Below, one piece after another: positions 870 to 20,149 of a stretch of 23,206 nucleotides of DNA (position 1 is the stretch's first letter; each line of letters opens with the position of its first letter). The notes below the pieces were generated by a model. That model searched no databases and had not been told where the DNA came from. It saw only the letters and a list, made by a program, of their open reading frames with translations. A program made the translations under genes and the position numbers. This stretch comes from a virus, in the IMG/VR virus record IMGVR_UViG_3300021356_000177, positions 1 through 23,206 of that record; one strand, written 5' to 3'.

Positions 870-2126
870 TTAGCAATTCCAAGCTCTAAGGGACTTATTG
901 ATCCTGCTATCGGGATCGTTAGCAGTTTTTGAAGAAGTGAGTTTCTTCTTCATACCTTTCATTCTCGCACAAAAACTTGCTCTACGAGGGTTCCCAACTT
1001 TTTTTGAAGGTGCCTTAAGATCGCTTCCTGGGTTCTCACGCTCATACGACTTCCTCCCCTTCTCGTTGAGTCCACCTGACTTATTCTTTCCTGCCTTTCT
1101 GGTCCATGCTGCTGCTTCATCTACTTTCTCCACTTCTTCTTTTTTAACACAGTTTGGATATCTCTTACCAAACATTGTCTTCATACCTTTCTTCTCATAT
1201 CCCTTCCAGCACTTTTCACCGAGAAGTTCGGATGGTGAAAGAAGACTCTCACCAATCTTTGTGGTTACTTTTTTCTTTCCATCTGACGATGGAACAAATT
1301 CACCAAACTCACCCATGGACTTGTCTTTTTTATCGACATCACCACTTACGTTGGTATCAATTCTTTTTACTGCTCTCTTAACAAGTTTTTTCAGTCCATT
1401 GGATGGAACTTCGACATCGGAAGATAATCCTTCAGTAACATCTTCTTTTGCCATCTTAGTGGCAGTGGCATACATCACGGACTTATAATCATCACCATAA
1501 CGTGCTTTGAAATCCTTAGCAGATTTCTTCATACCCTTCACATACTTTTCCTTATCTTTCTCTTCACCTTTACTTAGAGACCTCTCTTCAATTGCTTCCT
1601 CACCAACGGGAACACAGTTAGGAACCATACGGTTGCCTTTCTTTTTTAAACCCTTAGCGGTATATCCCTTCCAGCACTTTTCATCAAGTGCTTCTTCCTT
1701 GTTCAGTTTTGGAAGTTCTGCAGTCTTGCCAAGTTTTCTCTTAGCAGCATCTCTTTCACCACCGACACCACGTTGCATCAGTGCTCTCATTTTTTCTCTT
1801 CTCTGCTTTACCTTATGTGCAGAAGAGTCAATCGTCATGTTGGTCTCTTCGGTCTTCACGTTGATTGCCTTCCCTTTTCTATCTGGATTTGGATCTTCAC
1901 GATTCTTACGACGAAATGCTGCTTGCTCCTCATCTTTGGAGAGAGCACGCTTCATTTTACTGGAACCACACTTTGGTTTAGTGGTTTGTCCTGGTTGCTT
2001 GGCACATGGTTTTCCTGCGTATTTGCCACCCAGTTGAACCCAACCAGGCTTGCCATCAGAAGACTTACTCTTGCTAAACCAGTCACGCAGAGAAGAATCA
2101 CCACTTTTGTTTTCATTCAATGCCAT
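870..2126 (-). CDS. Lysine-rich modular protein with four cysteine pairs (DUF6321-like C-terminus), between the terminase genes
   Basis: This 418-residue, strongly basic protein has unknown function. From the ATG at 2126 the modules in order are: an N-terminal SLRDWF...GKPC...KPKC block (about 12-60; Cys41, Cys53); a basic helix with KQRREKMRALM (about 106-132); a CWKGY...VPNCV block (Cys151-x19-Cys171); a YKSVMYATATKMAKE block (about 214-228); a second CWKGY...YPNCV block (Cys306-x19-Cys326); and a C-terminal AAWTRKAGKNKSGGLNEKGR block ending in RAWNC (Cys386, Cys418). The last block matches my memory of DUF6321 in marine phages, unverified. ATG 2126 is preferred over an in-frame TTG at 2135. 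A candidate late promoter lies 24 nt upstream. Basic charge and position between gp16 and gp17 fit a nucleic-acid or capsid-internal role, but this is inference. Confidence 0.8.
   Translation of the reverse strand: MALNENKSGDSSLRDWFSKSKSSDGKPGWVQLGGKYAGKPCAKQPGQTTKPKCGSSKMKRALSKDEEQAAFRRKNREDPNPDRKGKAINVKTEETNMTIDSSAHKVKQRREKMRALMQRGVGGERDAAKRKLGKTAELPKLNKEEALDEKCWKGYTAKGLKKKGNRMVPNCVPVGEEAIEERSLSKGEEKDKEKYVKGMKKSAKDFKARYGDDYKSVMYATATKMAKEDVTEGLSSDVEVPSNGLKKLVKRAVKRIDTNVSGDVDKKDKSMGEFGEFVPSSDGKKKVTTKIGESLLSPSELLGEKCWKGYEKKGMKTMFGKRYPNCVKKEEVEKVDEAAAWTRKAGKNKSGGLNEKGRKSYERENPGSDLKAPSKKVGNPRRASFCARMKGMKKKLTSSKTANDPDSRINKSLRAWNC
1197..1218. repeat. 22-bp perfect direct repeat, copy A (CWKGY module)
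   Basis: This stretch is identical to 1662-1683. Both copies encode the GEKCWKGY/DEKCWKGY segment of the modular basic protein. Identity at DNA level over 22 bp, with divergence on both sides, suggests a module duplication under selection for the motif or kept alike by recombination. Confidence 0.85.
1662..1683. repeat. 22-bp perfect direct repeat, copy B (CWKGY module)
   Basis: This is the partner of 1197-1218, in the same orientation and the same reading frame, 465 bp apart (an exact multiple of three). Recombination between the two copies would delete 155 codons in frame. Confidence 0.85.
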
Positions 2127-2150
2127 TGTCTGCAACAGGGTAGTATAACT

Positions 2151-2158
2151 TATTTATT
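2151..2158 (-). promoter_or_regulatory. Candidate T4-type late promoter box AATAAATA
   Basis: Read on the minus strand, the box is AATAAATA, one mismatch from the T4 late consensus TATAAATA. It overlaps the gp16 stop codon and sits 24 nt before the ATG at 2126, in one of only three gaps longer than 6 nt in the window. The same octamer occurs by chance inside coding sequence (3552-3559, 5897-5904, 18623-18630), so the sequence alone is weak evidence; position and spacing make the case. Confidence 0.45.
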
Positions 2159-2570
2159 TCTTTTCGTCCATTAGACCTTGCTTAATAAGTTTTTGCAACT
2201 CAGCAGTGGTTCCAACAATCAAAGCGTTATTGGTTACATGAGATGGACCTTTCTTATCCTCTGCATTCAAATCTTTTAATTTTTTCTGCAAATCAATTAG
2301 TTTATCCGTCGCATCAGAAACATTCTTGATCAACTGTCCAGCAACTTCATATGCTCTGGGTGAGTTGGTTTCTTGTGCCAACTCCATCACACCATCTAGA
2401 GTTTCCTGACCTTTTTCAATAATAGAATACAATTGACCTCTACTGTATTGATAGTCCTTATCAATGTCAGTTTTGGTTAATCTATCAGGTTTTTCTTTTT
2501 TAACTGGTGTGGACTCTACAGTCTCAGTTGTTATATCTAAAGCTTCATCAATACCATCATATCCAGACAT
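2154..2570 (-). CDS. gp16: Terminase small subunit gp16
   Basis: The encoded protein is 138 residues (T4 gp16 is 164) and starts MSGYDGIDEA. It should recognise concatemeric DNA and regulate the gp17 ATPase and nuclease as a ring-shaped oligomer. An acidic, flexible N-terminus is followed by a charged helical region (about 30-110), including SRGQLYSIIEKGQETLDGVM and a Lys-rich helix IDLQKKLKDL, as expected for the coiled-coil core of gp16. A basic tail follows. The ATG at 2570 is chosen over the in-frame TTG at 2576 because an AGAGG Shine-Dalgarno lies 10 nt before the ATG and only 4 nt before the TTG. Two bases separate it from the gp15 stop. The assignment rests mainly on position between gp15 and gp17 and on helical character, since small terminases diverge quickly. 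Confidence 0.8.
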   Translation of the reverse strand: MSGYDGIDEALDITTETVESTPVKKEKPDRLTKTDIDKDYQYSRGQLYSIIEKGQETLDGVMELAQETNSPRAYEVAGQLIKNVSDATDKLIDLQKKLKDLNAEDKKGPSHVTNNALIVGTTAELQKLIKQGLMDEKK

Positions 2571-2572
2571 GA

Positions 2573-3376
2573 TCAAATATCCTCTTGTTTAGTGGGACTA
2601 TACTTCTTGGAGTCTTGGAAGAATTCGAATGTCTCTGAGAATCCGAAATCATCTGCAGGATCAGCATCAATTGGATCAGGAACTGCAGTATATCTTTGCT
2701 CCCTCTTGGCAACTGTCTGATCTGTATTTGTATACATATCGACTTGAACTTTTCTGATAAGACCATCTGAGGAGTCTGCGATTGGACCAAACAGATAAGT
2801 CTTGGCAGTAAAATCGAAAGTATAAATTAGTGACCTTCTACTTGTGAAGTCACCTTCATAGTCATCTTGCATGTTGATGCTATTCAACACCACGGGAATA
2901 TCTTTCTTTTCCCCGATAGAAGAAACTAAATCAACTGTAAGATTAAAAGATGGTTGGAAGTATGGAAGAATCTGCTCTGTAATTTGAAGAGCGTCATCAT
3001 TCAACTTGCAGAAAGCAGCGAGTTGAAAATTAATGTTATATGGAACAGGATGATAGACTTGTCTAACACCATTGCCGTCTGCGGCAACAGCTTTAAAAGT
3101 TTTAGTTACCGTCGTTTTTCTAGTAGGATCATATGAAATACCAGACATCTCAAATGACATTCTTGGCAAAGTAATTGCAACTGGTTTGCTCAGATCTGCT
3201 TGCTGTTGAATCTTGGCAAGGAACTTTTGCATTGGAGCATATGCCAATGGCACCTTGATATCATCAATAACGGTTCCACTATCGTCTCGTTTCTTAATAT
3301 GGATGTTATTGAAAAGAGTACCGAAGGAAACAATGGTCCTTCTAATAATTTCGTGATAGTAGTATGTTCCTAACAT
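2573..3376 (-). CDS. gp15: Tail terminator / proximal sheath stabiliser gp15
   Basis: The encoded protein is 267 residues, close to T4 gp15 (272). In T4, gp15 caps the finished tail as a hexameric ring and forms the surface that docks to the gp13/gp14 neck on the head. The N-terminus LGTYYYHEIIRRTIVSFGTLFNNI followed by the KVPLAYAPMQKFLAK block (about 41-55) and LPRMSFEM (about 70-77) is the characteristic conserved start of this family in T4-like phages. No insertion is apparent, unlike its neighbour gp14. The start codon overlaps the gp14 stop by one base (TAATG), and no strong Shine-Dalgarno is visible, so it is likely translated by coupling. Order 13-14-15-16 is kept as in T4. Identity is considered firm. 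Confidence 0.92.
   Translation of the reverse strand: MLGTYYYHEIIRRTIVSFGTLFNNIHIKKRDDSGTVIDDIKVPLAYAPMQKFLAKIQQQADLSKPVAITLPRMSFEMSGISYDPTRKTTVTKTFKAVAADGNGVRQVYHPVPYNINFQLAAFCKLNDDALQITEQILPYFQPSFNLTVDLVSSIGEKKDIPVVLNSINMQDDYEGDFTSRRSLIYTFDFTAKTYLFGPIADSSDGLIRKVQVDMYTNTDQTVAKREQRYTAVPDPIDADPADDFGFSETFEFFQDSKKYSPTKQEDI
2581..2585 (-). promoter_or_regulatory. Shine-Dalgarno AGAGG deciding the gp16 start
   Basis: AGAGG on the minus strand lies inside the last codons of gp15. It is 10 nt upstream of ATG 2570, against 4 nt for the alternative TTG at 2576, and so favours the shorter gp16. Confidence 0.6.
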
Positions 3377-4791
3377 TAGAAGTCACCAAATGGATTATTT
3401 TCACTAAAGTCTAAGATGCTCAAGCCCTCAGATTCAAATTCATCATTCTGATCAAATGGTGCGTCTTCATCATAATCATTGTAAGAAGAAACTTTCCATC
3501 TAGCAGAAGATGCAGCTCCAATAATTGCCTCACCAACTTGGAACCTTCCACTATTTATTCCAACCTTAAGAATCTTGGTATCGGCATTCCAATCTCTTAC
3601 CTTAGCAGTTACAGAAGAAGCTTGTCCAACAATATTTTCATTATACTGGAAATTATTCTCTATCAGAGATCCATCTTCACCAACTCTCAATACATTGATG
3701 CTAGGTGCTTCAGTGTATGCAATTCCAGTATCAGAGAACAGAACATTTGTGAGAACACCATTGACAACAACTGATTCTGCTCTTGCTGGAGTAATTCCTG
3801 TGCTTGATCCAAAGGAAATAACTGGTGTGTTGAAATAATTGCTTCCACCATTAATAACACGGACAGATGTAATACCAGTGTCAGTAAGAACTGATGTAGC
3901 AGCAGCTCCAGAACCATAAACACCCTGACCACCAGGAGCAGTGTTAGCAATACTGGTAATTGTTACGGACGGTGGAAGAGTATATCCAAATCCAGGATTA
4001 GATATCAAAATTCTATCAATTGAATGAATACCTCTCCTTACAGTTGTAATAGCGACCGCTTCTGCCGTAGATCCAGGTAAAAGTGCAGGTGAATCTTCAA
4101 TAGTAACTGTTGGTACTTGAGTATATCCAGCACCATCATCAGTCAGAACGATTTTCTGCAAAATACCAGTTCTTCCAAAGTTGTCAATTCTACAGGTAGC
4201 AGTTACGCCTTGACCAACAAGAGTGAGTTCTGTAATGTATCCAATCTCTTTAATTTCATCGTCGATAACTTCAATACTAGTGTCAATGTCTTCACCCTCA
4301 TACTGGAAGAGTTCGCATTCTAGTTTGTAAGTATAGTTTGTTCCAAGTTGATAGAATGGTTGTTCATGTTCTACTCTTTTGATTTCAAATAATCTCTCAC
4401 CAAGTGGGAAATAAACCAAGTCTCCCTCTCTTGGTCTGCTATCAATAAGCATCTGACTATCATCAACCTCTGCCATAAAAGGTTGGATGAACTCTTCAAA
4501 TCTTTCTTTAGAAAGAGTCAAAGTAACTTCATTCTGAAGATTGATTCCAAACTTCGTCATAATGTCAGAACCAGGAGCATATCCCTCAAAGTTTTCAAGA
4601 TACGCTTCAATGGCAAAGTTATCATCGAACTTGGAAGTTTCGATTTCTCTAATAATATTATCTTTACCAAGAACTTTTCTGGGAATATAGTAAATCTCTA
4701 TCCCATATGTCTTTAGGTGTTCATTGATCAGATCTTGTAAAAGATACTGTTCGTTGGCAGAGCCTTGCAAAAAGAATGGATTGAGTGCCAT
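3376..4791 (-). CDS. gp14: Neck protein gp14 with internal beta-repeat insertion
   Basis: The encoded protein is 471 residues against about 256 in T4. gp14 and gp13 form the head completion complex at the portal vertex, to which the tail attaches. The N-terminal part (1-185; FFLQGSANEQYLLQDLI, YYIPRKVLGKDNIIREI, LVYFPLGERLFEI) and the C-terminal DFSENNPFGDF are typical gp14. Between them, residues about 188-370 (nt about 3682-4230) hold four degenerate repeats built on Gly-x-Gly-Tyr...Pro-x-Val-x-Ile, centred near residues 222, 269, 318 and 358. Residues 385-437 hold a second module (GQASSVTAKV...GEAIIGAASSARWKV). Similar modules occur in gp8 and the big tail proteins here. The start overlaps the gp13 stop by one base (TAATG). 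The extra length is an in-frame insertion, not a misjoined gene. Confidence 0.92.
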   Translation of the reverse strand: MALNPFFLQGSANEQYLLQDLINEHLKTYGIEIYYIPRKVLGKDNIIREIETSKFDDNFAIEAYLENFEGYAPGSDIMTKFGINLQNEVTLTLSKERFEEFIQPFMAEVDDSQMLIDSRPREGDLVYFPLGERLFEIKRVEHEQPFYQLGTNYTYKLECELFQYEGEDIDTSIEVIDDEIKEIGYITELTLVGQGVTATCRIDNFGRTGILQKIVLTDDGAGYTQVPTVTIEDSPALLPGSTAEAVAITTVRRGIHSIDRILISNPGFGYTLPPSVTITSIANTAPGGQGVYGSGAAATSVLTDTGITSVRVINGGSNYFNTPVISFGSSTGITPARAESVVVNGVLTNVLFSDTGIAYTEAPSINVLRVGEDGSLIENNFQYNENIVGQASSVTAKVRDWNADTKILKVGINSGRFQVGEAIIGAASSARWKVSSYNDYDEDAPFDQNDEFESEGLSILDFSENNPFGDF

Positions 4792-5618
4792 TATCCGATA
4801 AGATCAAGGGGAGGAATTTCGTATTCTGAGAGCATTCTATTCTTAATGTCTTGAATCTCTCTTTCTGCATCATCGTAGATTTCTCTACCATTTAGTTCGA
4901 TGCCACCAGGAAGTTTTGCTCCCTTGAACTTGATTAAGTTCTGACCCCACTGTCTCTTAATTAAAGCAGTTAGATATAACTTTACGAAAGAGTCATTGTA
5001 TACGTTAGTAAAATCATCTGGATTAATAATTCTGTAGCAATCTAATACAATATAATCACTAGGCACTGCGCTTGCCCAGTCAATATCCATGTACAATCTA
5101 TTTTGTCTTTTATTAAATCTGACTTGCTTATCTGTTGTCAATAAGAAATCAATATCTTCAAGATAACTCTTAGTCATTGCATAGGAAAGAAGACCCTGAT
5201 ATCCAAGGTCAAATGCAATGTCATTCAAGAATAACTGATACTTGACACTAAACATTCCATTAGAAATAGAACTAGAGTCAAACTTAAATACTTTTTCAAT
5301 TCCAATAATAGAATCTGGAACTTGAATATAATTACCGTTCTCGTACCAAGTGAAATTAGTCGTTACACCAACAGCAGTCTCGCTTGAAATACCTGTCCCA
5401 CCAGGACCAGCTCTTCCACGATCTTTGTCTTCTGTGGTAATTTGATATTTTAAGAAGGTCCTTACAACACCATCAAAATGCCTTTCATGAAACAACTGGA
5501 GAGCGTCGTCTACGGCATCATCAATCTGCTCATCGGCAACGTTGATTTCCAGAACAGGGGCACCAAGTTTTCTAAGACAATAATCAATGAGTGATTGTCT
5601 ACTATTCGGTTTTGCCAT
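4791..5618 (-). CDS. gp13: Neck protein gp13 (head completion)
   Basis: The encoded protein is 275 residues (T4 gp13 is 309). It binds the portal after DNA packaging and, with gp14, makes the platform for tail joining. The N-terminus SRQSLIDYCLRKLGAPVLEINV and the acidic helix DEQIDDAVDDALQLFHERHFDG (about 29-50) are the hallmark of gp13 in marine T4-like phages. The mid region YIVLDCYRII...DFTNVYNDSFVKLYLTALIKRQWGQN and the C-terminal IPPLDLIG also fit. The ATG at 5618 overlaps the TGA of the fibre gene (TGATG), and a good GGAGG Shine-Dalgarno lies 9 nt upstream inside the fibre gene. Product levels may therefore be less dependent on coupling than for gp14 and gp15. No anomalies were seen. 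Confidence 0.94.
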   Translation of the reverse strand: MAKPNSRQSLIDYCLRKLGAPVLEINVADEQIDDAVDDALQLFHERHFDGVVRTFLKYQITTEDKDRGRAGPGGTGISSETAVGVTTNFTWYENGNYIQVPDSIIGIEKVFKFDSSSISNGMFSVKYQLFLNDIAFDLGYQGLLSYAMTKSYLEDIDFLLTTDKQVRFNKRQNRLYMDIDWASAVPSDYIVLDCYRIINPDDFTNVYNDSFVKLYLTALIKRQWGQNLIKFKGAKLPGGIELNGREIYDDAEREIQDIKNRMLSEYEIPPLDLIG

Positions 5619-8600
5619 CAGAAGGAGCCTCCGTCAAATACGTCTGTCCACACTGGAACACCAGATGCGTTAGTTGTGAGAAGATAATTAGAAGTTGTAA
5701 TACCACTAGTTGTCGCACCACTGCTGACGATTAATCCGTCACCATCAAAGAATGCGATTCCATTAGGACCATTGTAATCACCAGAATCATAATAAATGCC
5801 ATCCGTTGCGGAAAGGAATCCGACAATGTTGACGTGAGTGCTGATGGCAACATTGCTACCAATCTCAGAGTTTAGAGTCAGAGCACCCGTCTTGCTATTT
5901 ATTGTGTTATTGCTAGCAGAACCAATCTCGATGTTAGCTGCTGTTGTAATACCAGAGACTTGTAATGTGTCAGTCTCAGTATGACCTGTTACATCAATAC
6001 CATCAGCAGTGGTTTCAAATGTCTTGGTGTTGTCGTAGTAGAGTTCTACCGCTCCATCTGTAATGAATTTAGCTTTAGTTTCGGCACCATTTATATTGCC
6101 AATAATTACTTCACTATCTCCCCAGATGTTTAGATTTCCAGGTCCAATATCTTGAATAACAGATCCAACTGCAGGATCTGAAGAATGATAAATCTGTAGG
6201 TCAAGATCATCACCAAAAGTTAATTTATAATCATCCAGAAGTTCAACTGAATTTTGGAATGTAGAAGCAGCAGAAACAAGAACACCGCCAGTAATCGTTA
6301 CACCATGAGTAGTGGTTTCAAATTTCTTGACGTTATCAAAGTAAAGATCTACTGAACTATTCTTGTTAAATTGTCCATATACTTCATTACCACCAACATC
6401 AGTAATCCTTACATCGGAATCTCCCTGAATGAAAAGAACACCAGTTCCTTCATCTCTAATGACTGAGTGTGATCCATTATGGAAGATTTTTAAGTCATCA
6501 GAGTTACCAAAGTTCAGAACATTGTTGTCACCGAAGTAAACATTATCTTGGAATGTGGCAATACCAGAGAACGTGAAGTTGGTAGCAAAACCAGAACTAA
6601 TGTTGATGGTATCAAACTCACCAAGAGGAGAATCGACTTGAGTGAGAGTAGCAATGCCACTGGCATTAATATTTTCAACTAGAGTATCACCGACAACATC
6701 CAGTCTGGCTCTTGGTGAGTCTGTTCCGACTCCAAGATTTTGGTTGTTATCCAACCGCATTCCTTCAACAGCATCAGTATTGAATCTGATAGTTCCGTTA
6801 GAACCACTGTCGTCAAGAGCAATTGAAGTATCACCTCTCTGGAAAGCATCAATCTGAACGACCTGTGCCGTCAAGATACCAACAATATTCACGTTACCGA
6901 CAACATTAACTTCACCAGAACCAGCGGGGTTAATGTTTAGATCACCCGAAAGTGTTTCAATACTGTTGCCCGAGATAGAAACATTGCCAAACTGACCACT
7001 GGTTGGTGTGATGACGCTGCTATTTGTACCATCAGTGATGGTCAAAGAAGAAAGTGCCTGAAGACTTGTTACTTGGTTAGTGAACGATACTGTTCCGTTT
7101 TCTTGGTCAACAAAGAATGCCTCACCAACTCTGAAATCACCCTTATGGTCAATGCTGACATAGGAAACTTCACCGTTGTTCAGTTCTGTAACTTCGTTTG
7201 CTTGAACAGCAAGGTTGGGATCGTTGGAGAAATCTCCACCAGCACCAATAAAGTTGAAGTTAACTGCGAAGAATCTCAGAGTAACACCGTCACCATCGGC
7301 AACAACACCCTTCTGACCATATTCAACAGCACATCCAACAGAACGCATGTCAGCACCAAACTGACTAAAGTCTGCCAATGTGAACTTGGTTGCGGTTCCG
7401 ATACCACCACCTGCTTGAGTGATGCGGATGTCCTGGTTAACAATGATGTCATCAGATGTAGTAGTTACACCAGCGGCACCGTTGAAGTGAAGAAGAATAG
7501 AGGTATCTCTGTCACCTAAAAGTTCCTCTACTGGGGCAGTAAAGTTTGATGTATACTTACTGACATCTTTTTCAACTCTGAACTCATCAATGTATCCCTT
7601 ATAAGCACCTGTAGCACCATCATATTCGGCACCAAGGACCATTGGCTTGGTGCTTCCATAGTCATTGCTATCTGAGTAGGTAGAACCCTCTTGTGTGCCG
7701 TTAATGAATAGTTTTGTAGATGTGGACTCTCTGGCAAGAGCAATGTGATAATAAGTTCCAGTGCTCAATCCTGTATTACCAAGAATGGCAGTCGTAGCAC
7801 CTACTTGTACACCGATACTAGCACCAACAGAAACGATGTTAAGAGCAGTATCAGATGCTGACCCATTTCTTAAGTCAAAGATTGTTTTCTTACCAGTGAT
7901 TTCATCTGGTCTAATGAAGAACTCAACGGTGAAGTCGTTCGTTCCAAAACCGAATCCACCAGCAGTTTCGGCACTAATAGAATCGTTTGTACCGTCAAGA
8001 TATAGTGCTGCTGTACCAAACTTGGGGAAGTTCGTGGAAAGCTGTGCGTCACCATTGAAGGTAACTGCCTGAGCAGATCTGTTTGACAGAACTTCAAATC
8101 CAGTGCTCTTACCAGAGATTCTGAAGTAAGTGGCATCGGCACTAGCAACAATACCAGTTGCCAGACCAGTTACACCGTCAGTATCAAAGTAGGTAACGGT
8201 GTTGCCGACTCCAACGTCTGTCGTGAGACCAGTTGCTCTCAGTCTTGTCTTACCATCAGAAGCGAGTCCAACAGTGCCAGACGTACCTTCAATACCAGTT
8301 GCAGCAAAGTAAGAGAAGCAGTTCAGGAACTCAACACGAGCTCCGTTTGTCATTTCAATACCCTTACTGTTTGGTACAATAAAAGTACACTCATTGAATA
8401 GGAAAGCTGCCTCCAGAGAATCACTGGTTACTTCAGAACCATCAATATAAGCACCACCACCAGCGATGTAAGAGGATGGTGGAGAGTCAGCAGAGTTGTA
8501 ACCATATGGATCATCAGCAGTGGTGTTACTACCAAAGTTCAGAACGGTTACTCTCTGAACATATGGAGATCTCTGTGTAATACCAATTCCAGGAGCATAC

Positions 8601-10657: not shown

Positions 10658-10881
10658 TAGTAAACACCTCCATCAACATTTAATTCAGAAGCGGTAGAAG
10701 CGTTAACCCACCTTCCAATCGAACTTTGATACACCAAAATTTGACCGTCTTGTTTATTTGTAATACTTGTGTCGGTTAGAGATTCTAAGGAACCACCTCC
10801 ACCTCCACCACTGCCAGTAGCACCCGTGGTTAAAACCTTAACCGCTGGTTGCTGACCAACACGAACTTTTACCCTTGTCAT
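10657..10881 (-). CDS. Small protein with Gly-rich linker, fibre-associated, function unknown
   Basis: The encoded protein is 74 residues. A basic beta-like N-terminus (MTRVKVRVGQQPAVKVL) is joined by a run of Gly/Ser (about 22-31) to SLESLTDTSITNKQDGQILVYQ and RWVNASTASEL. The LTD...DGQ.LVY...RW pattern is seen in many phage tail fibres as a short collar or attachment repeat, and the final VDGGVY resembles the DGGSF end of the following fibre protein. It could be an adaptor that holds the fibre or a leftover piece of one. It starts with one-base overlap on the 112-residue gene (TAATG), with a strong AGGAGGAG 10 nt upstream, and ends in one-base overlap with the fibre gene, so the two are likely made together. 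Confidence 0.78.
   Translation of the reverse strand: MTRVKVRVGQQPAVKVLTTGATGSGGGGGGSLESLTDTSITNKQDGQILVYQSSIGRWVNASTASELNVDGGVY
10665..10671 (-). promoter_or_regulatory. Strong Shine-Dalgarno GGAGGTG of the fibre-like gene
   Basis: GGAGGTG lies 7 nt before ATG 10657, inside the end of the 74-codon gene. It is the best-spaced ribosome site in the window and suggests high expression of the 1679-residue protein. Confidence 0.7.
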
Positions 10882-11219
10882 TACCTGGTAACTCCTCCTC
10901 TGACAAGAACGGTTCCCTCTACTACTCGTGTTCTGGTCCCACCAGTTTCAATTACCAAATCATAAACATATCTTCCAGGTTTTAATGTCGAAGTCAAAGT
11001 CGATCCCATTGAGACACTGATGACACCACCAGCAGCATCGGTCACGGTTGTTTGGAATGGTGTGCTAGTTGTTGCGAGAAAATGTTTTCTCAAAGCAGCA
11101 CTATGTGCATAACCAGTCAAATCTAAAGCACTGTCAGACGATGCATCTGCCAATGTGAATGATTGGTCAAAAGTTGCACCAACATTTACGCTTAGATTTG
11201 ATATGTATACGGCAGCCAT
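10881..11219 (-). CDS. Small beta-rich virion-type protein, function unknown
   Basis: The encoded protein is 112 residues starting MAAVYISNLSVNVGATFDQSF. Alternating hydrophobic strands, LDLTGYAHSAALRKHF (about 33-48) and LKPGRYVYDLVIE...TRVVEGTVLVRGGVTR at the end suggest a compact Ig-like or BppU-N-like beta-sandwich of the sort used in phage baseplates. That comparison is by pattern only. There are no cysteines or membrane segments. It heads the group 112-74-fibre-gp13-14-15-16, all coupled or 2 nt apart. It follows one of only three sizeable gaps, where a GATAAATA late promoter box sits 24 nt upstream. The Shine-Dalgarno is poor. Probably a minor baseplate or fibre-attachment protein, judged from context. 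Confidence 0.78.
   Translation of the reverse strand: MAAVYISNLSVNVGATFDQSFTLADASSDSALDLTGYAHSAALRKHFLATTSTPFQTTVTDAAGGVISVSMGSTLTSTLKPGRYVYDLVIETGGTRTRVVEGTVLVRGGVTR
10892..10899 (-). promoter_or_regulatory. Shine-Dalgarno AGGAGGAG of the 74-codon gene
   Basis: AGGAGGAG lies 10 nt before ATG 10881, within the C-terminal codons of the preceding gene. It confirms this start and shows that this small gene is strongly translated. Confidence 0.65.
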
Positions 11220-11243
11220 TTAACGAAAAGCACCCTATAGAGG

Positions 11244-11251
11244 TATTTATC
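11244..11251 (-). promoter_or_regulatory. Candidate T4-type late promoter box GATAAATA
   Basis: Minus-strand GATAAATA, one mismatch at the first base from TATAAATA, overlaps the stop codon of the 71-residue gene and lies 24 nt before ATG 11219. It is the only copy of this octamer I found in the window, and it occupies one of the three longer gaps. It would drive the fibre, neck and small terminase genes. Confidence 0.5.
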
Positions 11252-11462
11252 TACCTAATAAGTCATGAACTAATCTTTTCAATTCATTTACTTCTTCGTG
11301 AAGATTAGAGAGTTCTTTTTCCATGTCTCTCTTCTCTTCTTTTTGTTTTTTTAATGTATTTCTTTGACGGACATATTCTAGATATGCCCGTCTATCTGTA
11401 TTGACTATCGCTCCAGTATTTTGGTCACGATAGAGATTTTGATGTCCCTCTACTTTTATCAT
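11247..11462 (-). CDS. Small coiled-coil protein of the tail operon, function unknown
   Basis: The encoded protein is 71 residues. The N-terminal motif MIKVEGHQNLYRDQNTGAIV and the TD..AY..Y segment recur in small proteins of marine cyanomyoviruses as I recall them. The C-terminal half (about 34-69) is a clear coiled coil: hydrophobic residues at Leu51, Leu54, Val58, Leu61, Val65 and Leu68 follow a perfect 3-4 heptad pattern, in a stretch rich in Lys and Glu. The start overlaps the stop of the 2354-residue gene by four bases (ATGA), implying coupled translation. A trimeric or dimeric chaperone or clamp for a large tail protein would fit, but nothing in the sequence proves it. Confidence 0.8.
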   Translation of the reverse strand: MIKVEGHQNLYRDQNTGAIVNTDRRAYLEYVRQRNTLKKQKEEKRDMEKELSNLHEEVNELKRLVHDLLGR

Positions 11463-14400
11463 GCAAGAGCCAGTGTTCTGATATCTCTGAACATTGGAAC
11501 CTTAGATTGATTAGTTGTTGTACATACAATCTTAATTACATATCCAGTGAACTGTTCCAGATTATCAGCAGTGAACTGATATTCTAGATAATCATTAGGT
11601 GTCAAACTTGGTGGGACAATTGCATCTGGATGTCCAGTGTTTGCAGCAATATTTTGAACTTGATCACCGAATCCATCACCGTCAGTATCAATGAGATTCT
11701 CATATCCAGGGAAGAGTTCGTATGTTTGATCAATCTCACTGGAGTCTGCTCTAACCAACTTATACAGAACTCTGAAGTCGGCTTCAGATGGTCTGACAGC
11801 AGTAAGAAGAACTTTCAACGAACTAGCAGGTTGCTGAAGATCAATTCTTTGAGAAATATAAATCGCAGAATGTGGATCTGCATCATCAGAATTGACTCTG
11901 GGATCAGTTGCATAATTCATTCCAGGATTATCAATTCTGCTAGAGAGAAGTTGCAGAGATGCCTGATCAAGATTGATATATGGTGAAACGTAACTATCTG
12001 TCGTTTGAAGTTCTACACCAAATGTGAGAGACTTGCTACGAGGAAGATCAGTTGTTCTAGCGTCTTCATTGACTTTAGAAGCAATCAATCTTGGAGTCTC
12101 AAGTTCGTTGATGGTATTAATACCAACAGATTCAAATCCCTGATCGAGGAATGATACCTCTGTTCCGTTAATACTGGTTCCAGAGACTGTTCTTACTCTT
12201 GCAGAAACACTGGTTCCTTCTCCAGGTGTGACAACATCAAACTGAGGAGCAATGTAGTTAAACTGAATGTTTTGAGTTGCCTCAGCACGGTTTCCACCAA
12301 CGAGTGCATTTGTAGTGAACGAAAGTTGTGGTTCCTGATTGGTGTTGTCATCAGTGTCTCTATTAGATCTATCGATTTGAATGTAGTATCCATCGATAGT
12401 CCTATCAACAGAACCCATGTCATGAGTCTTGTTAATTCTTCTCAAACCAACTCCATTCAATTCATACTTACGAGCTTGATCATTGGTTTGGTGTGCAATA
12501 GTCAGAGTGTTATCAACACCTCTTTGAAGGACACCAACAGTTCCAACACCAATAGAATCATAAGCAATGATTTCTTCATTGAGAACCAGATATCCAGTGT
12601 TTGCAGCACCAACAGCGATTCCTTCATAAGTAAGCAATCCAGATGTATTTCCAAGAGAGATTACGGCATCATCAACACCAAGAGGTGCAGAGAGAACATT
12701 GATTGGTGTATTTGGTTCAATCTTGGAAAGGGTTACCTTATTATTATCAGCATACATTCCATGATTGTAATGATCAACACCGAACCAAGATCCATCATTG
12801 ACATCTCCTGTAGTTACATTTGAAGATGTAACATCAACTGCAAGTAACGTAGTGGATGAAGCACCTTTGATGTTTCCAGAACCATCGTAGTAAGAGAGTG
12901 CGGCACCTACCTGCATATCCTCACCTTGAACATTGGTCAGATATAAGGTGTCAATACCCCAAAGATTATCAATGTTGATAACAGCACCGTCACCGAAACC
13001 ACCCATCTGAGATGTGACAAGTCCTACAGTATCTCCAACAACATATCCAGTACCAGAAGAAGCGACGGAAACTGCAGTTACATTACTGATTCCCATTCCA
13101 ACAGTGACGTTAAGTTGTAGTCCTGTTCCATTGCTATTAATATTAAAGGTATCAACAGTTGCATCGGGTGTTCCATACCCACTGCCACCAGTGAATACTC
13201 CAACTCCATTTGTGGGAGAAAGAGGACCACCCTGTTGCTCAACAAATCCAAAGGTATATCCCTTAGCAGATGTTGTTACTTTTCTTCCAATAGCAAGAGT
13301 TGTAATTCCTGCTTGTCCATTAGCATAAGTTTCAATACCAACAGTAAGTTTTCTTGGATAGGTTTCAATAGGATCTTCACCAAGAATTCTAGTTCCAGCG
13401 TTACTAACATCAAGTTTTGGATTATAGAAGAATGCAGTTCCAGCATTGGCTGTGAAGTTCGCACGATAAAGTTTGAACGTCATGTCTTCATACTGATTAG
13501 CAGTCCAAATAGACCCGTTCTGAGACAAGAACAAGGAACCCATGGAGTATTGTGTTGCGTAGACAACACCAGTTGCAGCAGGTAGATCACTGGCATTAAC
13601 GGTCTTCTGACCCATCTCAGCAACCCACACTTCATACTGATCTGTGTCAGCAAGAAGAACAACGGCAAATTCTCTATTCGGTTCCAGATAAATTGGTGAT
13701 GGGAACTTGATATTTGTCGCAACGCTAGCATCCCTAGACGTTACAATATCACCTGGTTTTACAAGAACCCTAGCAGCTGGTGAGACAAGAGTTGTTGTTG
13801 GTGTGCCAAGTTCCATGGTGCGAAGTTGAACTTCGCAAGGAATATTTCCACCGTCTTTATTGGCAAAGAAGACATCAACAGAAGTGATAAATGCTCCCTC
13901 ATCTTCAACCAAGAAGGATTGTGCCAGTGGATCATAGAAGATTGTCTGTACTCTCTGTCTAACAATGACACGTCCATTCGCAGTGTAGTTTGTAACTGCT
14001 GAGGAAATCAACTTACTACCTGGCAGTGGTTCTGCGTTGGTAGCACTGGTGGTAAGTTTATATTCTTTAGTTCCTGTGGTAATTCTGACCGCAGGTGCTG
14101 GTCTTGCTAATGGATTTCTGAGGAAGAATGTGCCTTGGAGATCACCACCATTATCGGCAATCAACTTAATATCTGACACATTTGCCTGAGCACCACTGCT
14201 AAGACCTCTCAGTCTCGCACCAACTTCAAGTCTTCCAGAGAAAGCACCCTGAGCTTGTGCTGCAAGTGCTACGATATCAACGTTGAGAACTGTAGAAGCA
14301 AGTGAATATTGTGTTGGTAGTGTAGTTGTATTGTCATATGGGTTGATTGTATAAGATACTGTTGGGGTAGCAAAAGCACCAGACTTGTGATCTGGTCTCG

Positions 14401-17400
14401 CAAGTCTGAATCTAATGATGTCAACACCACCGACAGATCCAACAACGGTTTCACCAACTTGGAATACACCTGTTACATCTTCGACTTCAACCAATTTGGG
14501 AACAACATCCACACCACCGTTTCCATCAAGGAATTGATAGTATCTTCCGTATGGTTTATTTCCTACAGAATCAAACGCTACATTTCTAGATCGCATAAAA
14601 CGATCAGCAGTATTTGATACAACTCTTACTCCACCAGAACTGCTTCCTGCTCTGCCTGGGTTTGGAATCCAGGAAACCTGGGCAGCACGCCAGAGATTTC
14701 TAACCCAGAAGTCAGACTTTGGTGTAAGATCAACACTTCCGTTATATAAAACAACGTTGAATGGGTTTACGTTCTCAACCTTAGTAGCATGTGGTTGACT
14801 CAGATACTCAACTTCATCATAGTTGAGTGTAATCATTCGACCAGTCTTAGTGACATTTGGATCTAAGAGATCAAAATCAACACCGAGATCGATCTCATTA
14901 TCTGGAATATTAACATTAGATGAAACGAGAGCATCTAGTGAAATTGCATCCAAGAATGGTTTTAATTCATTATCTTGTGGAAGCATTACCGATCTAGGAT
15001 CGATAAAGTTGGCATTTCTAAAATTATCAACAAAGAAACCAGACTTAAATCTATTAAGTCCCGTGGTATCTTGAACCTGAAGTGATTGAGTCTCCAATTC
15101 CAGAAGATTCAAAGAGGTTACTTCCTCAAGACTTTCAATCCTATCCTCAAGTTTTCCGATATCACGCATAGTGTATCTTCTATTATCTTCCATCGTGATG
15201 GAAACATTATCAAGATTATAAAGATAGGCAGGAAGTTCAAGAGTCGCTAGAAGCATTGCTTCACTGTTCTTATCAGGTGCCTTTGGATTTCTATCAGGAA
15301 CACCTTCTACATATACGAATTTGCCAAGTGTATCGACATACAATCTGTCAATTCTAGGAGCGTAGAACTTGTACCCAATTACAGAACTTTCATTAGCAGA
15401 AAGAATAATTTTGGGTTGATCCGTGAATACTCTTGATTTGAAATCAAATGGTGATGCTGCTGCACTGCTTGGATCGAAGACAGCAACTCTAGGTCTAAAA
15501 TCTAAAGTATCCGAAGCTCTTTGCTGCTGATTTCCGATGAGTGGAATATCCTCAGAAAATCTCTCTGCATCGTAACTATCTACAGTAAAGATATCACCCT
15601 CATCATTAGAAGGCACGGTGTAATGATCATATACAACGAAAAGTCTTCTGGTTGGTTCAGAATAACCATCATTTCTTACCAATCTAGCATAATCATAATA
15701 CTGACTCTTTTGACCTTTATCTAAGGTAAATCTATTGGTAACATCAGTATATCTTCCAGATACAATTGATTGGATTCTTCCAATCACATTTGACTCTTCA
15801 AACAATACATTTTCTTGAGTTGTAAATCTACTCTCGGTGAGATAGACAAATGTGATTTGATTAGCACCTTTTGTCACTACTTTTGCAATGGCACCTGAAC
15901 TTGATCCGATCAAGTTTTCACCAAGGATTACGCTATCATTGATGTCAGGATTTGTGAAGAAGTTGAGAGTGTCTAAGGTTACTCCAGTTTCATCAATTGA
16001 TTGAAAAACAGCAAATACATTGGCAACATCTGGATAGTTTAGGCAGATTTCTTTATCCTGAACTCTCAATCCATAAAAAGTGCTCTTTTCGAGACCGTCA
16101 TTGATGCTGCTGTTTGCATCAGTTCCAGAGTTACTATACTTGGATCTGGTTACCTCAAGAGTTCTTACTCTATTGTAGACCTTCTGTTTATTTTGAACTG
16201 CAGTTTTTCTGACTGTAGCAATGACATTTACGTTAGATTGACTTGCTCTAAGTCCATTAATAGTGACAACATTTGAGGAGATTGATACTTGATCATCACG
16301 GAGTGGTTCAACATCACCATCACTATAAATGACGGAATATCTTTCCTCATCAAATGCTTCAAAAAGAATATCTGTAAGACCAGTGATATCTGTAGCAGAG
16401 AGTGTAAGAACACCTGCGGCATTGGTAGTTTTTCCAGTTGCCTCTACAGTTGCTTTCAGAGTAGAACCAGTAAAATCAACTGTAGCGATGTTTCCATCAT
16501 CTAACTGTGCATACAGGAATCCTTCATCTTCATTTCTGATAGTGGATCTTCCTCTTCTAAACTGCACTGTTGTGGTAGAAGTTGGAAGGGCACCATCAGC
16601 AACGTTGTTAACACTATGAACAGATTCTAAGGTCATTTTCAGACCATCAGCAGTAATAGAATTTACTCTATTAAATGTTGCTGTAGAGAATCCAGGTCTT
16701 TGATATCTAATGATGTCACCAACCTTAAAATTGGTAAAATCATTTCCAGCAGAAGTTGTGATGCCAGCTGGGTTAATATTAATTGTATCAGCAACAGTGA
16801 ATCCATTGGGGACAGTAAAGTCTAAAACTGTGTCTGCCGTAAAATCAGTGGTGTATCCAGATAAAGAACTGCTATCTTGGAAAACCATCTTGACATCACC
16901 AGCACCATAAGACTTAACGTTATTTACGGTTCTGGGTGTTGTAGAGATGCCGTTGATACTAATAGATTCTCCTTGAATAAAACTACCAGCAGTTTGTCTC
17001 AGGAAGACATTGGAGCTACCTGATCCTACAGTTGTGGCATATCCAGTTGCACCACTGCTCAAACCTCTAATGAATGAGGTATCTGGCAATTCACCAGCGC
17101 TTAGAGTATTGTTTAATTGGATTCTGGTATATGTTTGAACGTCATAAAGATAACAATCATAAATTGTTGTCTCTGTTCTGGCAATACTTACCTGAGATTC
17201 TGGTTTTACTGTATATACTCTTGCTTCACCAATCTGAGTTCCATTACTACCACCAGTGTTATCTCTTCTCTCGTCATAAAGTTGAATAGCATCTTTGAAC
17301 TTGGGAATACCATTGACGTTGTTCAACTTGATGAGATTACCCATCTCAAAGTCAACAGCAGAAGATTTGACTTCTTTAGTTGCTCTAGTTTTGTTTACAT

Positions 17401-18523
17401 CAAGAATTGTAGTTCCGTTCTTTTCTACGTCATATCCTCTGACATATGCAACACCTGGTCCTACTTTTAAACAGGCAAGATCATCATTAGGAATGCTTCC
17501 CTGAGATGTAGATTGATTAGAGAAGTAAAGTCCATCATTACCAAGTCTATCATTCAAAGAATTAAAGAGACCGATCTCAAAATCTTCTACAGAGTAATCT
17601 CCAGACTCATCATAAGTTCTCTTAGCGAGATAGTCACGAATCTGACTGTATTGAGTGCTCTTAATAATTTTTCTGATTTGACCGTTATCAACCCTGAGAA
17701 GTTCAATGAAGTTTACATCGACTGTATCGGTGATGCTCTTCTTACCAAGAACGAGTTCAATCTTTAATCTATCAGCACCTGGTGCAGTATAGTTAGAGAA
17801 CCCTTTAGCATTATCGTACAGAGTTCCATCTTCTTTTGCTGTAGCGATGGTTTCTGCAATAACTAAACCAACCCTAAGCGATGGTTGATTACTGTACTGC
17901 TCAAGTAAAATAGTCTGCTTTGTTACTCTGACAAAAGCTCCTCTAAGGAACATAATGCCCTCACCAATGTGAGCGGCAGAACCAATGGATGTTGCATTTT
18001 CAGAGATACAGGTAGCAAATGTATTACCTGCAGGAATAGTTGTATTACCGTAATCTACTGCCTCTAAAGTCTCTAAATTTTCTCCATCAGTAAATGATGC
18101 AATTGCATCATTTGAGTTACCAGAGTCAATATATTTAACATATAGAGTTACATTATTTCTGTCAGAAAGTGTCTCTGCAAGAACATATTGAACTTGGGCA
18201 GTGACATTAGATTCCTGACCAACAATTCTTTTACCGACAAAATTATCAATGTAAACACTTACGTCTGTACCTAAGTGTGTTGCATTGATTTCTACAGCAT
18301 AAAATTGATCATCATATGTTACGTTACCAGGGATGACAATAGATCCCTCTTTAAAAATATGACTGCCGAACTGTTCAATCTGATTCTGAAGAATCGATTG
18401 CAGAGTTGTCAGTTCTCTTGCCTGAATTGGGAATCCAGGTTTGAACAGCACACGATGATAATCCTTAGCAGGATCAAAATCATCATAGTAAGGATTGACA
18501 TTGAGATTTGTCTGCTGTGGCAT
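11459..18523 (-). CDS. Giant baseplate/tail virion protein with DUF4815-type architecture
   Basis: This 2354-residue protein occupies the T4 gene 9-10-11 position. The N-terminus (YYDDFDPAKDYHRVLFKPGF, PIQARELTTLQSILQNQIEQ, about 12-52) and FYDPLAQSFLV (about 1529-1539) with LEPNREFAVVLLADTD (about 1613-1628) match the DUF4815 virion proteins I know from marine T4-like phages. Further parts: GESI/SSGA beta modules near 93-131, 485-530, 864-925 and 1437-1455; a helical stretch RDIGKLEDRIESLEEV (about 1120-1135) that may trimerise; two Gly-Tyr repeats (about 1779-1832); an EEIIAYDSIGVG...RGVDNT cassette (about 1983-2006); and a DTDGDGFGD calcium-loop-like motif (2279-2287). It begins 4 nt after gp8 without a strong Shine-Dalgarno. 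The frame is open throughout, so it is one gene. Probable role: outer baseplate or fibre-connector shell. Confidence 0.87.
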   Translation of the reverse strand: MPQQTNLNVNPYYDDFDPAKDYHRVLFKPGFPIQARELTTLQSILQNQIEQFGSHIFKEGSIVIPGNVTYDDQFYAVEINATHLGTDVSVYIDNFVGKRIVGQESNVTAQVQYVLAETLSDRNNVTLYVKYIDSGNSNDAIASFTDGENLETLEAVDYGNTTIPAGNTFATCISENATSIGSAAHIGEGIMFLRGAFVRVTKQTILLEQYSNQPSLRVGLVIAETIATAKEDGTLYDNAKGFSNYTAPGADRLKIELVLGKKSITDTVDVNFIELLRVDNGQIRKIIKSTQYSQIRDYLAKRTYDESGDYSVEDFEIGLFNSLNDRLGNDGLYFSNQSTSQGSIPNDDLACLKVGPGVAYVRGYDVEKNGTTILDVNKTRATKEVKSSAVDFEMGNLIKLNNVNGIPKFKDAIQLYDERRDNTGGSNGTQIGEARVYTVKPESQVSIARTETTIYDCYLYDVQTYTRIQLNNTLSAGELPDTSFIRGLSSGATGYATTVGSGSSNVFLRQTAGSFIQGESISINGISTTPRTVNNVKSYGAGDVKMVFQDSSSLSGYTTDFTADTVLDFTVPNGFTVADTININPAGITTSAGNDFTNFKVGDIIRYQRPGFSTATFNRVNSITADGLKMTLESVHSVNNVADGALPTSTTTVQFRRGRSTIRNEDEGFLYAQLDDGNIATVDFTGSTLKATVEATGKTTNAAGVLTLSATDITGLTDILFEAFDEERYSVIYSDGDVEPLRDDQVSISSNVVTINGLRASQSNVNVIATVRKTAVQNKQKVYNRVRTLEVTRSKYSNSGTDANSSINDGLEKSTFYGLRVQDKEICLNYPDVANVFAVFQSIDETGVTLDTLNFFTNPDINDSVILGENLIGSSSGAIAKVVTKGANQITFVYLTESRFTTQENVLFEESNVIGRIQSIVSGRYTDVTNRFTLDKGQKSQYYDYARLVRNDGYSEPTRRLFVVYDHYTVPSNDEGDIFTVDSYDAERFSEDIPLIGNQQQRASDTLDFRPRVAVFDPSSAAASPFDFKSRVFTDQPKIILSANESSVIGYKFYAPRIDRLYVDTLGKFVYVEGVPDRNPKAPDKNSEAMLLATLELPAYLYNLDNVSITMEDNRRYTMRDIGKLEDRIESLEEVTSLNLLELETQSLQVQDTTGLNRFKSGFFVDNFRNANFIDPRSVMLPQDNELKPFLDAISLDALVSSNVNIPDNEIDLGVDFDLLDPNVTKTGRMITLNYDEVEYLSQPHATKVENVNPFNVVLYNGSVDLTPKSDFWVRNLWRAAQVSWIPNPGRAGSSSGGVRVVSNTADRFMRSRNVAFDSVGNKPYGRYYQFLDGNGGVDVVPKLVEVEDVTGVFQVGETVVGSVGGVDIIRFRLARPDHKSGAFATPTVSYTINPYDNTTTLPTQYSLASTVLNVDIVALAAQAQGAFSGRLEVGARLRGLSSGAQANVSDIKLIADNGGDLQGTFFLRNPLARPAPAVRITTGTKEYKLTTSATNAEPLPGSKLISSAVTNYTANGRVIVRQRVQTIFYDPLAQSFLVEDEGAFITSVDVFFANKDGGNIPCEVQLRTMELGTPTTTLVSPAARVLVKPGDIVTSRDASVATNIKFPSPIYLEPNREFAVVLLADTDQYEVWVAEMGQKTVNASDLPAATGVVYATQYSMGSLFLSQNGSIWTANQYEDMTFKLYRANFTANAGTAFFYNPKLDVSNAGTRILGEDPIETYPRKLTVGIETYANGQAGITTLAIGRKVTTSAKGYTFGFVEQQGGPLSPTNGVGVFTGGSGYGTPDATVDTFNINSNGTGLQLNVTVGMGISNVTAVSVASSGTGYVVGDTVGLVTSQMGGFGDGAVINIDNLWGIDTLYLTNVQGEDMQVGAALSYYDGSGNIKGASSTTLLAVDVTSSNVTTGDVNDGSWFGVDHYNHGMYADNNKVTLSKIEPNTPINVLSAPLGVDDAVISLGNTSGLLTYEGIAVGAANTGYLVLNEEIIAYDSIGVGTVGVLQRGVDNTLTIAHQTNDQARKYELNGVGLRRINKTHDMGSVDRTIDGYYIQIDRSNRDTDDNTNQEPQLSFTTNALVGGNRAEATQNIQFNYIAPQFDVVTPGEGTSVSARVRTVSGTSINGTEVSFLDQGFESVGINTINELETPRLIASKVNEDARTTDLPRSKSLTFGVELQTTDSYVSPYINLDQASLQLLSSRIDNPGMNYATDPRVNSDDADPHSAIYISQRIDLQQPASSLKVLLTAVRPSEADFRVLYKLVRADSSEIDQTYELFPGYENLIDTDGDGFGDQVQNIAANTGHPDAIVPPSLTPNDYLEYQFTADNLEQFTGYVIKIVCTTTNQSKVPMFRDIRTLALA

Positions 18524-18527
18524 TTTA

Positions 18528-20111
18528 TTAGAACTCTAATACGATTTTAACATCTTCCTTCTGTCTTTCATTCCTGGTAACAGAAGGTCTATTGTCAAGG
18601 TAGATGATTTCACCTTTCCTTTTATTTATTTCTGGATTTGCAAGACCATCTGTGAAGTTTACACCAAGGTTGACAACCTTTCCGTTGTTAAGTGTAGTTG
18701 TAACTCCACTGAAGTTTTGGTCCACGTTCACACTAAAAGAACCACCGCTCTTTGTAATTGCGTTAGAACTTGAGGTAAACTCAATTACTGGTGCTCTAGA
18801 TCTTACATCAATTGCATCAGTTTCATCACTAGTAGAAGCATTGTAATACAGACTTCTGTCCTGATAATATCTAATGATTTTAGTTTCGGTATCGTAAGAA
18901 GCAACGATTCCTTTAGCCGTAGATCCAACACCAACAGTCTGCTCAATAGTATCACCAATCACCAAGTCTTGAGCAGCACTCTGAGTCTCATATTTAATAG
19001 AGAATAATGAAGAGAATTGATTATCAGTAAAGATCGTATTGGAATTTAAAATCGTTGGATTCTTGACAATACCCACTTGTGCAAAGATTGTATCATCGGA
19101 GAAATCATAAGATGAATTGTCAAATCTTGCATACATCAGAACTTTGTCTGCACCAAGTTCTTTGTAAACATTGAATCCATGTCCTCTGGATGGAGGAATG
19201 ATTGGTGTCAATTTGGCAAATGCAGATGTCGCTGTTTGAACACCAGCATTTTCACTAGAAAGATCAACTCTTCCGAAGGAGTATCCACTACCACCTGACG
19301 TTACTTGAGTCTCAATAATTTGACCAAGAGAGTTTGTGGTTAGTCTTACTCTACCACCCTGACCATCACCAAGAATTGGGAATTCTTTAGCAGTAAACTG
19401 GGGATATCCAAGACCTGGTTCGTCAATAGCAACAATTTTAATTTGATTATTATTGACTTCAGAGTCTGCATTATCTCTAACCGCCTGAATTCCAGTATTA
19501 GTTGTAGTCAACCAATCATTAGGAACAGTAATATACTCAGTAGAGTCAAATTTAACAATGTCACTGGGGTTAATAGTATAGAGATATTTCCACAAATATC
19601 CATCACCACTAGTACCTGCTCTACTGGGTTCAACATCAGTGAATGTTGGTTCATCCAAAGAAGCCGATGGTGTAGTGGAAATGCCAGTGGCAGTTCCATT
19701 CTCTAAGCAAATATAAACACGAAACTCACTATTTACGACATAATAGTTGGAATCATACAGTCTATTTGAGTTTGTTACCTGCGATGAATTAGTGGCACTG
19801 TAATCATGCCGATAGTAATCATAGGTAGAACCCTGAACCCAATTCACCTTCCTAATCAACCTTCTTGTGTTAGAAGAAGTGACACGCTTACCAAAAAGCA
19901 TGGTGTCATAGACATGATTGGAATAGTTTATATTATCGGTAGGAAACGGTGGTCCACCAAGATCATTCCAAGTCGATGTTCTACCATATCCAGATCCAGT
20001 AGGATTGGATAAACTCATAAAAGCATAATAAGAGTTAGCTGTATTTGCGACAGATGCCACAAAGTTTTCAGCATTCAAAATCCTAAATTGATCTGTAATA
20101 ATCGCAGACAT
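18528..20111 (-). CDS. gp8: Baseplate wedge protein gp8
   Basis: The encoded protein is 527 residues against 334 in T4. gp8 is a structural subunit of the six baseplate wedges that links gp6/gp7 to the periphery. The family signature is strong at both ends: MSAIITDQFRILNAENF and NSYYAFMSLSNP, WVQGSTYDYYRHDYS (about 91-105), SLDEPTFTDVEPSRAG (151-166) followed by TSGDGYLWKYLYTI (167-180), and C-terminal GEIIYLDNRPSVTRNERQKED then KIVLEF. The extra length is central: two Gly-Tyr type repeats (LGYPQF about 234; GSGYSFGRVDL about 274-284) and a GDTIEQTVGVGSTAKGIV module (about 386-403), both types also found in gp14 and the large tail proteins here. The start follows AAAGG by 6 nt and a TATAAATA box by 21 nt. 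Identity is firm. Confidence 0.92.
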   Translation of the reverse strand: MSAIITDQFRILNAENFVASVANTANSYYAFMSLSNPTGSGYGRTSTWNDLGGPPFPTDNINYSNHVYDTMLFGKRVTSSNTRRLIRKVNWVQGSTYDYYRHDYSATNSSQVTNSNRLYDSNYYVVNSEFRVYICLENGTATGISTTPSASLDEPTFTDVEPSRAGTSGDGYLWKYLYTINPSDIVKFDSTEYITVPNDWLTTTNTGIQAVRDNADSEVNNNQIKIVAIDEPGLGYPQFTAKEFPILGDGQGGRVRLTTNSLGQIIETQVTSGGSGYSFGRVDLSSENAGVQTATSAFAKLTPIIPPSRGHGFNVYKELGADKVLMYARFDNSSYDFSDDTIFAQVGIVKNPTILNSNTIFTDNQFSSLFSIKYETQSAAQDLVIGDTIEQTVGVGSTAKGIVASYDTETKIIRYYQDRSLYYNASTSDETDAIDVRSRAPVIEFTSSSNAITKSGGSFSVNVDQNFSGVTTTLNNGKVVNLGVNFTDGLANPEINKRKGEIIYLDNRPSVTRNERQKEDVKIVLEF

Positions 20112-20132
20112 TATTAGCCTTTGTTTTTTCTG

Positions 20133-20140
20133 TATTTATA
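20133..20140 (-). promoter_or_regulatory. T4-type late promoter TATAAATA upstream of gp8
   Basis: An exact match to the T4 late -10 consensus on the minus strand, in the 38-nt gap before gp8 and 21 nt from its ATG. T4 late promoters need only this box, which is read by the phage sigma factor gp55 with the sliding clamp. It is the only exact copy I found in the window. Confidence 0.75.
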
Positions 20141-20149
20141 AGTTGAATT

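Follow-up and report, generated by a model that had tools for sequence, protein, structure and literature searches.

Conserved late-promoter-like boxes between and within the structural genes of a T4-like cyanophage, and their depletion from the opposite strand

Do the few longer gaps between the tightly packed genes of this locus mark places where late transcription starts? The window, i.e., the whole stretch of DNA that was analysed, is a viral contig record of 23,206 bases, and all its 14 called genes lie on the minus strand (Table 1). Its DNA matches are mostly T4-like phages of Synechococcus and Prochlorococcus. Given these matches and the gene families, we identify the window as a late structural gene block from a T4-like cyanophage. 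From the gene calls, we reproduced the arrangement that raises the question: ten of the 13 junctions are overlaps or gaps of at most 6 nt, while the remaining three are gaps of 38, 27 and 27 nt. For each of the latter, the original prediction had named a late-promoter-like box, and all box coordinates and spacings to the next ATG (21, 24 and 24 nt) agree with our mapping. Two further features of the window were observed, namely degenerate direct repeats (52- to 209-nt families) at 9156-10176 of the wedge/fibre gene and terminator-like sites somewhat above the shuffle level (13 vs. 7.0; 13 vs. 7.3).

Table 1. Boxes and genes of the window with their coordinates and assignments.
Feature	Coordinates	Strand	Remark
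Gap box J3, TATAAATA	20133..20140	-	21 nt before gp8; probable late promoter
Gap box J2, GATAAATA	11244..11251	-	24 nt before fibre-assembly-like gene; probable late promoter
Gap box J1, AATAAATA	2151..2158	-	24 nt before phrog_727 gene; probable late promoter
In-gene box in gp8, AATAAATA	18623..18630	-	99 nt before phrog_358 gene; probable internal late promoter
In-gene box in gp14, AATAAATA	3552..3559	-	175 nt before gp15; probable internal late promoter
In-gene box near 3' end of wedge/fibre gene, AATAAATA	5896..5903	-	277 nt before gp13; possible internal late promoter, weakest case
gp8 baseplate wedge gene	18528..20111	-	phrog_438, E 1.2e-150
Giant 2354-aa gene, phrog_358	11459..18523	-	VrlC-like name in relatives
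phrog_473 virion structural gene	11247..11462	-	family search
L-shaped tail fibre assembly-like gene	10881..11219	-	phrog_3304
Baseplate wedge / fibre-like gene, 1679 aa	5618..10657	-	phrog_1469
gp13-like head-tail adaptor	4791..5618	-	phrog_211
gp14-like head closure	3376..4791	-	phrog_460
gp15 tail sheath stabilizer	2573..3376	-	phrog_227
gp16 terminase small subunit	2154..2576	-	phrog_445
phrog_727 gene, function unknown, downstream of J1	870..2126	-	family search
gp17 terminase large subunit, cut by record's end	2..583	-	phrog_5989

The window contains six copies of ATAAATA, all of them on the coding strand. This total is not unusual (the shuffle mean is 4.7), while the placement in all three gaps is improbable. 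Taking the in-gene background rate, the respective probability is about 7e-8; a conservative model derived from the gap sequences themselves yields about 9e-5. The boxes of J2 and J1 each cover the entire TAA stop codon of the preceding gene, which is gp16 for J1. One could regard the boxes as AT-rich chance matches, two of them made in part from a TAA stop followed by A/T, and assume that nothing is read from them. Both the ordinary total and the included stop codons speak for such an explanation, which is however at odds with the presence of a box in all three gaps and with the fact that the box is kept across distinct relatives though the stop codon moves. Based on the conservation in relatives, we reject the reading as chance or stop-codon by-product as hardly credible.

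This conservation was assessed on relatives collected for each junction, where [AC]TAAATA with any preceding base was counted as a box. Only distinct junctions were considered, i.e., distinct upstream regions for gp8 and junctions with a gap of at least 15 nt for phrog_473 and gp16. Upstream of gp8, all 52 distinct regions carry a box, which is TATAAATA in 47 of them. Boxes are also found in 8/8 distinct gapped junctions after phrog_473 and in 27/28 after gp16, and the phrog_473 junctions without a gap (n=3) show no box. The alignment test suggested in the original prediction, i.e., boxes kept in relatives while their flanks drift, thus had a positive outcome at all three junctions. The opposite case, a gap that is kept with its box lost, was observed once among the 36 distinct gapped junctions of gp16 and phrog_473 combined and in none of the 52 regions upstream of gp8. 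In one group of relatives (L019-L030), the gp16 stop codon is shifted by two codons and AATAAATA is unmoved. Named phages have boxes at the same junction places; in ACG-2014f, S-SSM7, SynMITS9220M01 and Syn9, some junctions have CTAAATA as their gap box.

Two of the predicted properties have to be revised. A near-constant distance between box and ATG is seen within the window but not in relatives, where it is mostly 13-44 nt. Furthermore, J1 had been considered the weakest of the three sites, given the coding-sequence copies of its box. We find AATAAATA to be kept in the junctions of close relatives (L002-L030), and the in-gene copies do not weaken J1. The assignment of the boxes in the three gaps as putative T4-style late promoters is well supported by these alignments. 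Next to the boxes, we observed a stretch following J2 (11220-11243; ACCTnTATAGGGTGCTT) that is nearly invariant in nine close relatives, beyond what is expected for a plain spacer, and a run of A that follows the gp8 box (20113-20132; homologous positions in L096-L175) in nearly all relatives, at the would-be transcript start.

Alternatively, the gaps may hold sigma-70 promoters of the host type, used early or in the middle of infection, with an incidental ATAAATA. A 9-of-12 match with TATACT is indeed found at 2170-2142, over the J1 gap, and an overlap of early and late promoters has been proposed for S-PM2 and Syn9 (PMC2984593). However, sigma-70-like matches are about as many as in shuffles (30 vs. 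31.1; 46 vs. 37.2, sd 6.8), on which grounds such promoters were rejected, and the element conserved across relatives is the box. We thus consider sigma-70-type promoters very unlikely.

Besides conservation, we investigated the depletion of the box on the antisense strand of genes. That is, observed counts were compared with the expectation from shuffling synonymous codons gene by gene. The gene pools were taken from the window, L002-L179 and L432-L591, where the first pool comprises 602 kb of non-redundant genes from T4-like cyanophage loci. In this pool, the antisense box TATTTAT is seen once vs. 152 expected occurrences. For new loci around gp18 and gp43, we find 0 vs. 43 and 3 vs. 89, respectively, such that all cyanophage pools together show 4 occurrences vs. 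about 284 expected. In the second pool, TATTTAT ranks 2 of 13092 7-mers by z, behind AAAAAAA. For the first pool, a maximum-order Markov model expects 29 occurrences, an estimate that is itself lowered by the depletion. T4 late genes are depleted as well (1 vs. 16), and no depletion of TATTTAT is found in cyanopodoviruses (49 vs. 47 expected) and in host genes (108 vs. 112 expected). A further pool (L184-L262) shows a weaker depletion (11 vs. 28.7). It was left out of the totals, which was decided after the result was seen, because many of its loci match via a short domain only, i.e., may not be T4-like, and because genes on both strands were counted. Other 7-mers are depleted too, many of which overlap palindromic sites of the restriction type. 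For several of them (with AAGCTT, GGTACC or CCGG-containing sites), the depletion is strong and resembles an avoidance of restriction sites.

The depletion depends on the position within the box. Antisense one-base variants of TATAAATA are depleted for every change of the first base only as well as for C at the second base (TCTAAATA; 1 vs. 40, cyanophage pool), and the self-complementary variant TATATATA is depleted on both strands. The remaining single-base variants show about 0.3 to 1.4 of their antisense expectation. In T4 late genes, antisense CTAAATA is not depleted (4 vs. 4.2). For Aeh1 late genes, its 0 occurrences face 1.5 expected, i.e., too few expected sites, with TATTTAT at 3 vs. 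8.4. On the sense strand, TATAAATA is rare inside genes of the first pool (1 vs. 21) and around gp18 (2 vs. 18), but neither around gp43 (6 vs. 8.1) nor in T4 late genes (4 vs. 3.4). The strand-specific depletion supports a function of the box independently of its conservation.

It has to be considered whether or not the depletion reflects harm in the phage mRNA only, e.g., with UAUUUAU being an RNase target, such that a promoter role of its complement is irrelevant. With most genes of these phages on one strand, an avoidance acting on the mRNA would give the same picture as one acting on antisense promoters. Against harm in the mRNA, neither host genes nor cyanopodoviruses of related hosts show the avoidance. 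Moreover, the avoided variants correspond to the promoter core, with CTAAATA among them in cyanophages but not in T4. The rarity of sense-strand TATAAATA inside genes points in the same direction, as do the reverse boxes of Syn9 and P-HM2 that precede late operons on the reverse strand. We regard this explanation as unlikely.

Respective boxes were located in whole genomes. The Syn9 genome has 37 forward ATAAATA and a single reverse one, which is placed 32 nt before the reverse-strand gp48/gp53 operon. For P-HM2, one of three reverse sites is 25 nt before the reverse-strand gp4 operon, and three of the five in SynMITS9220M01 are upstream of reverse-strand genes at 2, 14 and 129 nt. None of the three reverse sites of ACG-2014f could be explained in this way. 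The reverse sites that do not adjoin an annotated reverse-strand gene are 33931 and 147413 in SynMITS9220M01, 149264 and 171537 in P-HM2, and 4860, 147897 and 179106 in ACG-2014f (record coordinates). Candidate explanations for these stray sites are antisense RNAs, missed genes or chance. The unexplained reverse boxes in these three phages count against the explanation by late promoters.

Finally, we evaluated the copies of the box inside genes. The three coding-sequence copies of AATAAATA already noted in the original prediction were found at 3552, 5896 and 18623. Within gp8 (18623), the codons ATA-AAT are fixed in 40/40 representatives; ATA makes up 16% of the Ile codons in these phages, and the one other conserved Ile column examined in gp8 shows 0% ATA. 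Among the 1566 7-mers of the gene, only the box is conserved to at least 98% in each of its bases, and it recurs 99 nt (Sf-CH5) and 98 nt (ACG-2014f) upstream of the next gene. Within gp14 (3552), 19/19 relatives of at least 64% identity have NATAAATA with a changing preceding base, and ATA is used by 10/10 representatives. Below about 50% identity, this box is lost with one exception. In SynMITS9220M01 and ACG-2014f, the gp15 box sits in a gap, so the gp14-internal copy of the clade studied here may do the same job. The copy in the wedge/fibre gene (5896) is kept in 11/11 closer relatives (ATA 8/8) but forms a weaker case, because the surrounding stretch varies little.

The latter would also fit a local protein or codon-context constraint that keeps the in-gene boxes irrespective of any promoter role, and the Ile-Asn pair in gp8 is indeed conserved at the protein level. 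Still, Ile and Asn have other codons, other conserved Ile columns are almost never ATA in these genes, and the conserved codons adjoining the gp8 box vary freely, such that we consider this constraint doubtful as the cause. We rate the copies at 18623 and 3552 as probable internal late promoters and that at 5896, the weakest case, as a possible one. For the three nested late transcripts originally proposed, this means that predicted late promoters in the three gaps stand, given the boxes kept in relatives, while the count of three is incomplete. As the in-gene copies are conserved too, about six start points instead of three are suggested.

Our main reading, which we assign a probability of roughly 0.9, is that the gap boxes are T4-type late promoters, that the in-gene copies are most likely further ones, yielding about six units, and that the box is purged from the wrong strand. 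Promoter activity, start sites, gp55 dependence and the number of units are what we infer here from sequence comparison. The box would be recognised as the only promoter element by a gp55-like sigma factor that sits on the host RNA polymerase and is tethered via gp45/gp33, and RNA would start a few bases downstream of the box with a leader of about 15 nt. In-gene copies would be late promoters lying within the 3' portions of the preceding genes. The about six overlapping late units would then be gp8; phrog_358 and phrog_473; fibre assembly to wedge/fibre; gp13-gp14; gp15-gp16; and phrog_727 to gp17. The cyanophage core is probably [A/C]TAAATA. The box would be purged from the opposite strand because so short a site, which often arises by chance, suffices to start transcription. 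Homologues of gp55 are present in 6/9 related records, including the contigs of two close relatives (L009 and L010); the window itself is a fragment.

The proposed element resembles known late promoters. NATAAATA is the published cyanomyovirus late box (PMC2984593), and the late promoters of S-PM2 and Syn9 show this same box at the same place before late structural genes, with overlap of the upstream gene allowed, as here (PMC2984593, PMC3037559). We found no description of deep in-gene copies, of a C in second position or of the antisense depletion for these published promoters. In T4, binding of the box by gp55 suffices to place a start, and gp45 and gp33 act as activators (PMC2988020, PMC1524935). 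The T4 late promoter (TATAAATA; gp55/gp33/gp45) has the box as its only recognised element, i.e., no -35 element (PMC2988020), and T4 late genes share the antisense depletion with cyanophages. In contrast to T4, the first base is mostly free here and CTAAATA is depleted antisense. The late promoter of Aeromonas phage Aeh1 (CTAAATA) shares its second-position C with several cyanophage gaps; this C is dominant in Aeh1 (PMC1524935), whereas cyanophages use both A and C.

The gap boxes themselves are an expected feature of T4-like cyanophages and their element class is known. In the open-access literature searched, we found no earlier report of antisense late-promoter avoidance, which is weak evidence of novelty, and the searchable literature held no description of the in-gene promoters and of the cyanophage [A/C] core, which does not prove them unreported. 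In general, it appears likely that the 7-base site of the late sigma factor constrains the whole genome of T4-like cyanophages, with [A/C]TAAATA almost completely purged from the antisense strand of genes and extra late promoters written into coding sequence via the fixation of rare synonymous codons. By strand depletion and synonymous fixation, late promoters that are likely to work can be told apart from chance matches, even at 7 bases. This predicts internal promoters for the giant structural gene, for gp15 and perhaps for gp13, and it suggests that cyanophage late promoters take C as well as A in the box. If true, maps of depletion and fixation would read out late-promoter specificity as well as hidden promoters from sequence alone. 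The approach further allows the sigma-factor specificity of uncultured phages to be tested by their sequence only.
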